Source: Mycobacterium sp. MS1601
Lineage (GTDB): Bacteria; Actinomycetota; Actinomycetes; Mycobacteriales; Mycobacteriaceae
DNA: 64,000 nucleotides
Assembly (NCBI RefSeq): GCF_001984215.1
Contig: NZ_CP019421.1
Coordinates: 124,001 to 188,000, forward strand
Direction: 5' to 3'
Made by a program: the position numbers and the translations under genes. Numbering within the stretch: position 1 is the first letter of the stretch; the number at the start of each line of letters is the position of its first letter. The notes below the pieces were generated by a model, which searched no databases, had not been told where the DNA came from, and saw only the letters and a list, made by a program, of their open reading frames with translations. Shown piece by piece: positions 3,159 through 7,925 of the stretch.

Positions 3159-3245
3159 GCACGTCAGTTTAGCTGCAAGAACACGCTGGAAGGGCGGCGA
3201 TCACAGCCAGATCTCCATCGCAGGTGGCCGACGCAGCTCACGACC

Positions 3246-3456
3246 GGCTCACCCGTACGCATGTGGAGCCGACACGGGGTGTTGGTCGGCTCGGCGCGGT
3301 TTGGCGGGCTCACCCGTATGCATGCGGAGCCGACTTCGATGTCACCGGTGATGCGCCGGACAGTGTGGGCTCACCCGTACGCATGCGGAGCCGACCCGTC
3401 CGACGAACTGCGGTGGCGCAGAGGTGGGGGCTCACCCGTACGCATGCGGAGCCGAC
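3246..3456 (-). CRISPR. Minimal CRISPR array, four 28-bp repeats and three spacers
   Basis: Repeats start at 3246, 3307, 3368 and 3429, exactly 61 bp apart. On the + strand each starts GGCTCACCCGTACGCATG and ends CGGAGCCGAC. The copy at 3246 differs by one T (GTGGAG) and that at 3307 by one T (GTATGC), while those at 3368 and 3429 are identical, so decay increases away from the effector gene. Spacers are 3274-3306, 3335-3367 and 3396-3428 (33 bp). All three end in G on the + strand, so the working repeat may be 29 bp with 32-bp spacers. The anti-repeat and the effector gene show transcription is leftward (minus strand). No cas1/cas2 is present. Confidence 0.93.
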
Positions 3457-4949
3457 GCTTCTTGACCAGCGCCGATGCGCTCGTCGAGTCGCATTCCGCA
3501 TCGAATGGGGTGACCGACCCGTTGCCGGGTCGGGGTGACCACTGCGTTGTCGCGGTGGCCTTCCCGCTTCATAGCCGTCAACGACCGGGTTCCCGCAGGT
3601 TGCGGGTGGTCCGAGACGGCTCGACGGGCGTTTATCGTCTCCCCCTTGCCGGGGGCGACGGCCGCCTGGGCGGCGATGTTGATGGCCGCGTTGACGTCCC
3701 TGTCTGCGGTGAATCCGCATGCGGCGCATCGGTATATGCGTTCAGCGAGCGTGAGCTTGGCTCTCGCACCGCACGCTGAGCACGTTTGACTAGAGGGGTA
3801 AAAGCGATCGATCACGGCAAGGGCGCTGCCGTACCAGGCGGTCTTGTATTCGAGTTGCCGGCGAAACTCGCCGGGTGAGACGTCGAGAATCGCGCGGTTC
3901 AGCCCGGCTTTCGCCCGGACATTGCGGCCTGGTTTGTCGACTGTGCCGCGGGCGGATGCAGTCATGCCTGCGACGTTGAGGTCCTCGACGGCGACGGTCG
4001 CCCATCTGGTCGCCAAGGCCTTGGTGACGGCGTGAAGTGTTGATGCGCGACGTTCGGCGACTTCATGGTGTCGGCGGCCGACCAGCCGCGCGGCACGACG
4101 ACGACGATTGGAGCCCTTCTTAGTGCGTGAGAGTGCGCCTTGGGCTTTAGTGAGGCGCGTGCGCGCCATATTCGCGTGTCGGGGGTTGCTGACGGTCTCG
4201 CCTGTGGAGAGGGCTGCGAGGGTGTGCACGCCGAGGTCGACGCCGACGGTGCCTGCGAGGCGCTGACGGCGGGTCGGCAAAACCTCGCTGACAATCTCTT
4301 GTTTGGTGAGGATGCTGGCGTACCAGCGATGTCCACCACGGGAAATGGTGACGGACTGGATGACGGCGCCCCGGTCCAGGGCACGGCAGAGCTGCTTGGT
4401 CGATGAGTGGACACGCAGGGAACCGAGGCGGGGTACCCGGATCCGCCGGTAGCAGCCGACATCAGGGCGAATAGTTGGGTTCTTAACGTCGTGATGAATC
4501 CGGAAGCTGTCATGGCTGCGGCGCTTCGCCTTGAACCGCGGCCTCCCGACTCGGCGACCCTTCCGGTTGCCGGTGATGGAGTCGAGCCAGTTCTTCCACG
4601 CGCGGTCAGCATCGGAAAAGGCAGACTGAAACGCGAAAGTGCTGACGGAGTGCCACCACGGGCACTCGCCCTCTCGTCCGGTTCTGTCGTCGCCTTTGAC
4701 CTTGTTGAGGGCCTTCTGGATGTCGAACTTCGAGGGGATCTTGGGTGCCAGGTTGGCGGCGACTGCGGGGTCCACGCCAGCATCGACGGCCTCACGGATG
4801 GCGGCCTGACGCTCGTCGAGCGCCTTGAACTTAGTGGCGATCGCGTGGTTGTAGGCCCACCGCGCCGCGCCGGCATGCTGAGCGACCACAGACGCCTGCG
4901 CGTCTGTGAGGTCCAGCGCGTACCGGTACGCGCGCAGCTGCTCGCCCAT
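3432..4949 (-). CDS. cas12n: Cas12n-like (type V-U4) RNA-guided nuclease
   Basis: 505 residues, in the 400-700 range of Cas12n and close to TnpB. Order: N-terminal helical part with WAYNHAI, RuvC-I GVDLGVHTLA (about 240), RuvC-II VAVEDLNVAGM (about 330), a zinc finger CSACG...YRCAACG (about 395-415) and RuvC-III ADRDVNAAINI, so all three acidic residues are present. About 80 codons follow RuvC-III; they contain the predicted tracrRNA anti-repeat and the stop codon lies inside the first CRISPR repeat (3429-3456). Known Cas12n systems take their guide scaffold from the nuclease gene in the same way. The alternative is a plain IS607/IS605-type TnpB, but the regular array, spacers and anti-repeat argue for CRISPR. 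No strong ribosome site precedes the ATG. Confidence 0.82.
   Translation of the reverse strand: MGEQLRAYRYALDLTDAQASVVAQHAGAARWAYNHAIATKFKALDERQAAIREAVDAGVDPAVAANLAPKIPSKFDIQKALNKVKGDDRTGREGECPWWHSVSTFAFQSAFSDADRAWKNWLDSITGNRKGRRVGRPRFKAKRRSHDSFRIHHDVKNPTIRPDVGCYRRIRVPRLGSLRVHSSTKQLCRALDRGAVIQSVTISRGGHRWYASILTKQEIVSEVLPTRRQRLAGTVGVDLGVHTLAALSTGETVSNPRHANMARTRLTKAQGALSRTKKGSNRRRRAARLVGRRHHEVAERRASTLHAVTKALATRWATVAVEDLNVAGMTASARGTVDKPGRNVRAKAGLNRAILDVSPGEFRRQLEYKTAWYGSALAVIDRFYPSSQTCSACGARAKLTLAERIYRCAACGFTADRDVNAAINIAAQAAVAPGKGETINARRAVSDHPQPAGTRSLTAMKREGHRDNAVVTPTRQRVGHPIRCGMRLDERIGAGQEASAPHAYG
3457..3730 (-). ncRNA. Predicted tracrRNA/scaffold region with anti-repeat at 3488-3515
   Basis: The + strand at 3488-3515 resembles the minus-strand CRISPR repeat: GTCG, TCCGCAT and GGGTGA occur in the same order and near-equal spacing. 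It is therefore inverted relative to the array, as an anti-repeat must be when tracrRNA and pre-crRNA are both read leftward. A second 10-base complement (CCGCATGCGG, 3715-3724) lies in the zinc-finger codons. The anti-repeat is 31 bp from the first repeat and inside the cas12n reading frame. RNA ends are not determinable from sequence; the interval given is a bracket. Confidence 0.7.
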
Positions 4950-4960
4950 GAGCCGAGATG

Positions 4961-6267: not shown

Positions 6268-7230
6268 TCATGCTGCGCCTGCGAGGGTTTCGCCGAGGCT
6301 GGCGGCGACGCGGTGGCCGAGCCAGCGGGCGATGGGGACGGCGACTGCGTTGCCGATTTGGCGTTTGACGTCGGCGCGGTTGCCGGTGAATGCGTAGGTG
6401 TCGGGGAAGCCTTGTGCGCGTGCGCATTCGCGGTTGGTGATCATGCGGTGGTAGGTGCCGTCGGTGGTGACGGTGGCCAGGCCGTGGTGGTTGCCGCCGG
6501 CGGTGATGGCGGCCAGGGGGTGTTGGTCGGCGCGGCGTGGTTTGGCGTTGCGGCGGTAGACGACGAGGTGGGGCGTGTTGGGCTCGACGATCTGGTCGAT
6601 CTGCGGTGAGACGTAGAGCCTGCGGGTGACGGGTTTCCCGGGGTCGGAGTCGAGGATGGCGGCGGCGGCCACGGCAGGCAGGTGGGGCAGGGTGAGGTCG
6701 ACGTCGCCGTTGCGAGTGAAGACGCCGAACCAGCGCTTGCGGCGTTGCGGCAGACCGAAGTCGGCGGCGTCGAGGATGGCGGTCTGGGCGTGGTAGCCGA
6801 GGGCGGTCATGCCGTCGAGCCACCAGTTGTAGAGCACCCAGTCGGTGAATTCGGGGACGTTCTCGACGATGACCGCTTCGTAGTCGTGGACTTCGGCGGC
6901 GGCGATAACGGCGAATGCCGTTGCTCTGTCGACTGCTCCGGCGTCTTGGCGGCGCAGTTCCTGGTCGACGGGTAGCTTCTTGCGGCCGCCGGCGGGTGTG
7001 TGCCAGACGCACGATGGCGATGCCCACAGCAGTGTGGTGGTGGGGAAGCGCCGCATGTCGGTTTCGTGCAGGTTGGCTAGGTGGTGTTCGGCGTCGGGGT
7101 GGTTTCGGCGGTGCGTTTCGACGGCGCGGTCCCAGTGGTTGGCGCAGGCGCGGATGTCCCAGCCTGCGAGGCGGAGGCCTTCGGAGGAGCCGCCGGCGCC
7201 GGAGTAGAAGTCGGTCGCGGTGAGTGTCAT
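6268..7230 (-). CDS. C5-cytosine DNA methyltransferase
   Basis: 320 residues. Motif I is DFYSGAGGSSEGLRLAGW near the N-terminus. The catalytic Cys lies in SPSCVWHTPAG, an unusual form of the PPCQ motif; VIVENVPEF is motif VI, GLPQRRKRWFGV motif VIII, and RECARAQGFPDTY...RQIGNAVAVPIARWLG motifs IX-X. The start at 7230 has GAGAGGGGC upstream; longer frames run into the toxin-antitoxin operator. No restriction enzyme gene is adjacent, so it is probably an orphan methyltransferase protecting the plasmid from host restriction. Bases 6515-6546 match spacer 1 of the CRISPR array. Confidence 0.92.
   Translation of the reverse strand: MTLTATDFYSGAGGSSEGLRLAGWDIRACANHWDRAVETHRRNHPDAEHHLANLHETDMRRFPTTTLLWASPSCVWHTPAGGRKKLPVDQELRRQDAGAVDRATAFAVIAAAEVHDYEAVIVENVPEFTDWVLYNWWLDGMTALGYHAQTAILDAADFGLPQRRKRWFGVFTRNGDVDLTLPHLPAVAAAAILDSDPGKPVTRRLYVSPQIDQIVEPNTPHLVVYRRNAKPRRADQHPLAAITAGGNHHGLATVTTDGTYHRMITNRECARAQGFPDTYAFTGNRADVKRQIGNAVAVPIARWLGHRVAASLGETLAGAA
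6515..6549 (-). other. Protospacer-like match to CRISPR spacer 1, with AAC PAM
   Basis: On the minus strand the sequence AAC, GCCAAACC, then the rest of a 32-base protospacer agrees with spacer 1 (3274-3305) at 29 of 32 positions. Differences are at guide positions 9, 15 and 31; the first two are third-codon positions and do not change the encoded protein. AAC directly 5' fits the 5'-AAN PAM known for Cas12n. Confidence 0.85.
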
Positions 7231-7350: not shown

Positions 7351-7548
7351 ATGCCAGCGTTGAATGTGGATTTCTCGGACGAGGAGCTTGCCGTCGTGAG
7401 GGAAGCGGCCCGCAATGCCGGGATGTCGATGCGTGCGTTCGTGAAGCAGACGACCCTCGACAAGGCCGTTGACCGGGAGGGGCGGGTCCGTGCCCTCGGC
7501 CAAGAGATCGCGCAGCGGTCCGCTGAGCTCAACAGCCGGCTCGCGTGA
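7351..7548 (+). CDS. Antitoxin of Doc-type module (ribbon-helix-helix-like)
   Basis: 65 residues: a short beta-prone start (PALNVDFSDEEL), then two helices (AVVREAARNAGMSMRAFVKQ), the layout of ribbon-helix-helix antitoxins, and a charged C-terminal helix likely to bind the toxin. GGAGAGCG precedes the ATG. Its stop overlaps the GTG of the toxin gene, so the two are translationally coupled. Expected to bind the palindrome at 7286-7330 as homodimers. Confidence 0.82.
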   Translation: MPALNVDFSDEELAVVREAARNAGMSMRAFVKQTTLDKAVDREGRVRALGQEIAQRSAELNSRLA

Positions 7549-7925
7549 TCGAGTACCCCACCGCCGATGAGGTGTTGATCGTCGCGGAGTATGCCTGCGG
7601 GTTCCGTCCTATTGTGCGCGATCCCGGTCTGTTTGAGTCGAGCATGATGCGGCCCACGGCAACGGTTTTCGGTGCGGATGCCTACCCCACAGTGTGGGAG
7701 AAGGCGGCGGCGCTGTTGCATTCGATGGTCACCACGCAGGCCCTGGCCGACGGCAACAAGCGCACCGGTTGGGCCGCCTGCTGGCTGCTCCTGGGCCTCA
7801 ACGGCCACCATGTCTCCCCTGCCCTCGATGTCGATGCCGCCGAGCAGTTCGTGCTGGACATCGCCGCCAACAAGCTGGGCTGGGAGCAGATAGCCGAACA
7901 GCTCCCGAAGTTCGCAGAAACCTGA
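7545..7925 (+). CDS. doc: Doc/Fic-domain toxin with Gln in place of motif His
   Basis: 126 residues, normal for Doc toxins, which phosphorylate elongation factor Tu. The Fic signature reads QALADGNKRTGWAACW. The loop ADGNKRT is intact, but the position normally occupied by catalytic His is Gln (CAG, one base from a His codon). Either the toxin is inactive, or it belongs to Fic relatives that work with Gln. The GTG start overlaps the antitoxin stop. Confidence 0.85.
   Translation: MIEYPTADEVLIVAEYACGFRPIVRDPGLFESSMMRPTATVFGADAYPTVWEKAAALLHSMVTTQALADGNKRTGWAACWLLLGLNGHHVSPALDVDAAEQFVLDIAANKLGWEQIAEQLPKFAET

Follow-up and report, generated by a model that had tools for sequence, protein, structure and literature searches.

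The window, i.e., the whole 64,000-nucleotide stretch analysed (124,001-188,000 of the 192,372-bp contig G000:C2), probably carries a Cas12n (type V-N / V-U4) system, plasmid-borne and serving to exclude plasmids closely related to its carrier, with spacers most likely supplied by type I-E proteins. All three spacers of the system match the plasmid that bears them. A sister plasmid without the Cas12n cassette contains a better target for one of them, which suggests that such plasmids may use the system against their close relatives. The genome comprises 6.83 Mb in six contigs, and its similarity to Mycobacterium plasmids points to Mycobacterium as the genus. The plasmid nature of G000:C2 is well supported, because this contig bears ESX genes (EccA, EccC and EccD), shows weak matches to conjugation ATPases and is mostly colinear with G095:C2, a contig of 341 kb from a different genome. 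No end overlap of the contig was found, nor was a TrwC / Relaxase domain found on it. A different contig of the same genome has, close to its start, a MobF (TrwC) relaxase domain (G000:C3:117-1007).

The cassette of Cas12n and mini-array occupies positions 3236..4954 (edges approximate, no strand assigned), the stretch that is cleanly missing from G095:C2. The effector is encoded on the minus strand by an ORF of 505 aa (3432..4949), recognised by PADLOC, by Pfam and by its 65-79% identity to array-bearing mycobacterial relatives. Of the best PADLOC models, Cas12f (677.6 bits) scores slightly higher than Cas12u4 (656.9 bits); Pfam assigns OrfB_IS605 and Cas12f1-like TNB, and the NCBIfam model above cut-off is guided TnpB. 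The stretches containing the RuvC residues D, E and D align with PDB chain 9j09 and are intact. As judged from its sequence, the effector is a TnpB/Cas12-like protein with the RuvC catalytic residues present, as in Cas12n (type V-N / V-U4). The family matches stop near residue 470, and the tail of the ORF extends across the guide scaffold and enters the first repeat.

This scaffold (3457..3631, minus strand) is a predicted tracrRNA-like RNA into which the 3' end of the effector ORF extends, a further Cas12n feature. In an alignment of the 175 nt that precede the first repeat at 13 loci, 23 of the 30 predicted pairs were found changed on both sides (counted with the relatedness of the loci uncorrected), and the repeat's 3' half pairs with one helix of the scaffold, which fits a guide in the direction repeat then spacer with a 5' PAM. 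The guide orientation assumed in an earlier note on this DNA is supported both by this covarying helix and by the AAC or AAG found 5' of independent protospacers when these are read on the strand of the effector. The CRISPR array adjoins the effector, as in type V-N / V-U4, and comprises four repeats of 28-29 nt at a spacing of 61 bp beside the TnpB-like gene; read on the minus strand, which is that of the effector, the repeat is GTCGGCTCCGCATGCGTACGGGTGAGCCC. Starting from the effector, this strand bears a 29-nt repeat including the last base C (3428..3456), spacer 3 (3396..3427), a repeat (3367..3395), spacer 2 (3335..3366), a repeat (3306..3334), the effector-distal spacer 1 (3274..3305) and a slightly degenerate terminal repeat (3246..3273). 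In the terminal repeat the base after the 28-nt core is unlike that of the other three.

Spacer 1 matches a C5-cytosine DNA methyltransferase gene (317 aa, 6268..7221, minus strand; Pfam PF00145, E 8e-35). The agreement with the minus strand at 29 of 32 positions (6515..6546), which the earlier note had described, was reproduced, and 60 mononucleotide shuffles of the spacer compared with the same 192-kb contig always gave at least 6 mismatches (median 10). In the whole 6.83-Mb genome, sites with <=3 mismatches are represented by the array copy and the methyltransferase site only. The mismatches fall at guide positions 9, 15 and 31; those at 9 (CCA/CCG) and 15 (CGC/CGA) are synonymous, as had been claimed, but the third (Leu/Val) is at position 31 and not at the final base. 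The match is flanked by AAC (6547..6549, minus strand; 5' flank cgcAAC), in agreement with the AAN PAM reported, together with double-strand DNA cleavage, for Cas12n (PMC11641405). Relatives of the methyltransferase occur in eight plasmid records, mostly of Rhodococcus, and in four mycobacteriophage records. The gene is adjoined by a Fic/DOC-family gene (window 7353-7925; Pfam PF02661), which a small antitoxin-like gene precedes; at the place of the Fic/DOC gene, G095 has, by eye, a different toxin-antitoxin-like pair.

A search of 396 genomes drawn from the genus for the 30-nt core of spacer 1 (<=3 mismatches) returned two of them, the own genome and G095. The G095 methyltransferase site has AAC, differs from the spacer at positions 24 and 31 only, is perfect over guide positions 1-23 and holds both synonymous alleles of the spacer. 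The derivation of spacer 1 from a homologous methyltransferase gene, proposed in the earlier note, thereby gains a copy that matches better than the resident one (2/32 mismatches), but in the collections searched no 32/32 foreign target was found for spacer 1, nor for spacer 3. G095:C2 is 341,437 bp long; 137,742 positions align with G000:C2 at 93.8% identity, and the encoded proteins are 99.1% (EccC), 98.6% (VirB4-like), 98.1% (methyltransferase) and 86.3% (EccD) identical. The site of the cassette is cleanly empty in G095:C2, window position ~3236 being joined directly to ~4955, and at another location the same contig has a TnpB-like match, a distant one at 37%. The mismatches of the resident copy had been interpreted as its means of escape. 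Three mismatches are indeed present, but this is approximately what general divergence predicts, and a selected escape is unneeded, because the block holding the methyltransferase gene is 93.1% identical to G095.

Spacer 3 matches G000:C2:122386-122417 beside AAC, with one mismatch at guide position 2, which is synonymous in a Pro codon (CCG vs CCC). The site is the end of an 860-aa ORF, in which no Pfam or NCBIfam match was found over the 805 residues scanned; among the 396 genus genomes, it occurs with <=3 mismatches in the own genome only. G095 keeps AAC, the first 12 guide bases and the spacer's allele at position 2, followed by a 9-nt in-frame deletion inside the protospacer. This deletion may be an escape, because deletions of >=6 nt are rare between both plasmids (22 in 132 kb, or ~0.7% expected per given site), an argument made post hoc. 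Spacer 2 is matched perfectly by G000:C2:117509-117540, inside a DUF1942 gene and on the opposite strand relative to transcription; this is its only perfect match, and the flank is ACC, not AAN. Sites with <=3 mismatches to spacer 2 are present in nine of the 396 genomes (own included), none of them with AAN, and no close site was found in G095 (10 mismatches). Since the spacer 3 site carries a deletion in G095, spacer 1 alone finds a suitable target in this, the only sister identified. No spacer target lies at a gene start.

Rival plasmids or phages carrying the methyltransferase had been named as the targets in the earlier note. The plasmid half of this proposal is supported by the target in the sister plasmid, but the phage searches yielded no good match; moreover, as all three spacers match the plasmid, the target would be the plasmid family and not the methyltransferase as such. 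A phage origin of spacer 1 was rejected: the phage collection queried with spacer 1 returned 14 weak records, none covering 80% of the spacer, and in 79 viral loci that code for methyltransferase relatives no site came closer than 9 mismatches. The comparison of spacer 1 with named plasmids gave 13 weak records, six of which cover >=80% of it at 87-89% identity in other kinds of genes, and BLAST of the own array as a whole against named plasmids gave two weak records.

The work of the system could be pictured as follows. If expressed, as we infer, the scaffold RNA with the 32-nt spacers would guide the effector to 5'-AAN sites. The source of the three spacers would be sister copies within this ESX plasmid family. 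A sibling that has no cassette would be expected to be cut and excluded, whether it enters the cell or already shares it. Resident copies could be spared owing to the mismatch near the PAM (spacer 3), the mid-guide mismatches (spacer 1) and the wrong PAM (spacer 2). Insertion of new spacers would most likely be performed by type I-E Cas1-Cas2 coming from a host or a further element; the reasons are that the array follows I-E in its geometry and PAM logic and that a search of the own genome revealed no Cas1.

Effector relatives (E 1e-60 or better) are encoded in 12 of the 396 genus genomes. Six of them are 67-100% identical and have arrays; the other six are 41-43% identical, and repeats were not found within 1.5 kb on either side of them. 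Named relatives are carried by pMyong2, M. avium pP4-4a and Streptomyces plasmids, and in G035 and G220 Cas12n stands beside recognisably similar upstream sequence. From 16 distinct arrays (the own one and 15 further loci) 72 unique spacers were extracted; at the related loci L216, L217, L222 and L087 an array was not found on inspection. The arrays of the six genus members have no spacer in common, which indicates spacer turnover.

Matches to the plasmid of origin, with 0-5 mismatches, are shown by six of the 23 spacers of eight mycobacterial plasmids (three here, two on pMyong2 and one on pP4-4a), the minima over 60 mononucleotide shuffles of each being 6 to 11 mismatches. In the five imperfect self matches, 9 of the 16 differences to the spacers are synonymous, compared with about a quarter expected without selection on the protein. 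The self matches of pMyong2 spacer 1 and pP4-4a spacer 3 are without AAN, like that of spacer 2 of G000. One more spacer, G035_a, read without a 27-nt insert, perfectly matches the related G220 plasmid beside AAC, within an ORF that has a Fic-like motif; the other 16 of the 23 have no clear match in the eight plasmids compared. The G035 contig is only 22 kb long, so that the own-plasmid comparison for G035 is partial. The first (effector-proximal) spacers of L027 (G035) and L224 are 59 nt long, that is 32 + 27; the two ends of the G035 spacer join into the perfect 32-nt G220 protospacer, and 27 nt thus seem to be inserted mid-spacer.

BLAST against plasmids took in three of the 16 distinct arrays (own, L224 and L226). 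At least nine of the 23 Streptomyces Cas12n spacers so compared match other plasmids with 0-3 mismatches, four spacers perfectly. Spacers matching other plasmids, as expected under a predicted competition between plasmids, are present; the comparison with phages covered spacer 1. For L224 and L226, the PAM was read at 10 of the 21 non-array records listed, weaker ones (e.g., L224 spacer 6, 90.9%) being left out: seven of the ten sites have exact AAG, at two the AA is displaced by one base, and the remaining one has neither. AAC is found at the spacer 1 sites (resident and G095), at the spacer 3 site and at the G035_a site. The fit of the AAC beside spacer 1 to the Cas12n PAM, claimed from the start, holds at these independent protospacers as well, and the predicted PAM of the system is 5'-AAN, as in Cas12n, with the exception of spacer 2 (ACC). 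Many partial matches to Streptomyces Cas12n arrays are located from NZ_CP108736.1:172471 onwards, a record that is absent from the 42 records with an effector match. NZ_CP108083.1 has two effector places, one of which was read.

Loading of the Cas12n arrays by type I-E Cas1-Cas2, acting in trans for most of them, is likely. Cas1 is present in 18 of the 396 genomes and was found in none of the six Cas12n-bearing ones; four of the 18 have arrays beside Cas1 with the 61-bp I-E period. Cas12n arrays have 29-nt repeats, and 48 of the 72 spacers measure 32 nt (49 once the G035_a insert is removed). In the AAC or AAG of Cas12n protospacers, the last PAM base is the last repeat base. One repeat (L223:3311-3339) has A in place of the final G in front of its spacer, which would be expected of a last base that is brought in with the spacer. 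All 13 Cas12n repeats have 18-22 of 29 bases identical with 29-nt actinobacterial I-E repeats, a level reached by shuffles in 0-1.15% of cases, while reverse complements give 7-13. For this comparison, 23 repeats of 29 nt were taken from PMC4762764, and shorter, longer and one shifted-register repeat were left out beforehand. The 29 + 32 geometry, the AAN whose last base ends the repeat and the I-E-like repeat are the features of an array that is apparently I-E-fed.

In the type I-E system of S. avermitilis, a 33-bp piece is taken behind AA (AAG), and the G at its start becomes the final base of the new repeat (PMC4762764). Cas12n arrays share with this adaptation the 29-nt repeat, the 32-nt spacer and the last PAM base serving as the last repeat base. 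Unlike I-E repeats, those of Cas12n keep the ends and not the full palindrome, and mycobacterial Cas12n protospacers show AAC instead of the I-E AAG. A Cas1 match was obtained in two of the 10 Cas12n plasmid records searched and in none of the other eight. Both matching Streptomyces plasmids share the longest Cas12n array extracted, with 16 spacers against 2-7 in the other 15. The one of them that was inspected, at L295 (NZ_CP108311.1:118001-138000), contains a full type I-E operon and two arrays of 61-bp period on the same plasmid as the 16-spacer Cas12n system. Host I-E proteins are reportedly used for acquisition by type IV-A3 systems.

The G000 system resembles AcCas12n / Cas12n (type V-N, formerly V-U4 / C2c9), a TnpB-like single effector of ~500 aa with the scaffold in the effector mRNA, an array and 5'-AAN (PMC11641405). 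Natural spacer targets are not stated in the text consulted; the G000 spacers appear to be aimed at sibling plasmids. Like types IV-A and V-M (Cas12m), the system is plasmid-carried, has spacers against other plasmids and belongs to those in which the adaptation module is often missing; IV-A and V-M repress without cutting (PMC11656645), whereas Cas12n is reported to cut double-stranded DNA. Spacer acquisition in trans is announced for IV-A3 in the title of Benz 2024, cited in PMC11656645. CRISPR systems of plasmids mostly aim at plasmids, adaptation modules are rarer there (36% vs 88%), and subtype V-F is the notable exception among Class 2 systems, poorly represented on plasmids (PMC9071438). 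In the accessible text of the same source the term V-U is absent, and a carrier's own cassette-less sister as the target, with differing resident alleles, is not met. V-N is listed among the poorly represented subtypes (PMC12669027). Among the papers listed in the literature searches, none dealt with natural Cas12n targets as judged by title or abstract start. Cas12n, mainly a genome-editing tool in that literature, would gain a natural job, the policing of close kin by plasmids. A tie of a TnpB-like single effector to I-E acquisition would account for the formation of memories in very small CRISPR systems that lack Cas1-Cas2 of their own, and for the suitability of AAN. In the sister pair, one plasmid bears the cassette, whereas the other has its site empty and contains a matching target; both sibling exclusion and feeding by I-E are thereby directly testable.

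The same matches could also arise by self-acquisition, the spacers being taken by accident from the resident plasmid, which later changed or never had a working PAM, and being now scars of autoimmunity. The perfect self match of spacer 2 beside ACC, with no plasmid having AAN at that site among the 396 genus genomes, speaks for this unlikely course of events; the two synonymous alleles of spacer 1 and the one of spacer 3, found in G095 and absent from the resident plasmid, speak against it, as do the Streptomyces arrays with matches to foreign plasmids, four spacers perfectly. A dead system, in which array and effector are unexpressed or inactive and self matches harmless, is rather improbable. 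It would account for the AAC kept at the resident spacer 1 site, and three spacers only, a degenerate array end and a genome without Cas1 agree with it, but the open frame, the intact catalytic stretches, the strongly covarying scaffold and the turnover seen in six genus arrays without a common spacer do not. Regulation of a gene, where the imperfect guide would hold Cas12n on the methyltransferase gene and lower its expression, is very improbable, although a partial match with the correct PAM exists on the same plasmid and a type IV-A1 crRNA is reported to regulate a chromosomal target (PMC11551745). The spacer 1 site is deep in the coding region, the spacer 3 site is at an ORF end and that of spacer 2 is inside a gene on the other strand; the spacers are not common to the five relatives, and the intact RuvC stretches count against regulation and against a nuclease-dead regulator, which was rejected. 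Exclusion of sister plasmids by Cas12n remains the preferred reading.

The cassette could, in addition to being a weapon, act as a homing element: a sibling with the empty site, once cut, would be repaired from the cassette plasmid and gain the cassette, the memories coming from I-E Cas1-Cas2. The targets do lie close to the cassette, at 1.6, 4.8 and 9.7 kb here, 3.7 kb in G220 and 8.6 kb in pP4-4a; for the distances of seven matched targets, Fisher p is 0.004, or 0.001 without the small pMyong2 and 0.028 when each plasmid is counted once (all post hoc). Homing is nevertheless rather doubtful, given that no rise in identity to G095 is seen around the cassette site and that, between G000 and G220, Cas12n is 78% identical (aa) versus 85-90% for EccA/C/D and the conjugation ATPases. 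Neighbours of the cassette are in part equally low in the latter comparison (DUF2637 78%, spacer-3 gene 81%, DUF1942 67%). The clustering of targets could alternatively be explained by their position in a leading region, and a MobF relaxase gene is located just upstream of Cas12n in pP4-4a; on G000:C2, no TrwC / Relaxase domain was found. Shortly after the pP4-4a Cas12n array, an annotated IS607-family transposase gene is present (L212:21871-22464), possibly a trace of an origin from a TnpB transposon.
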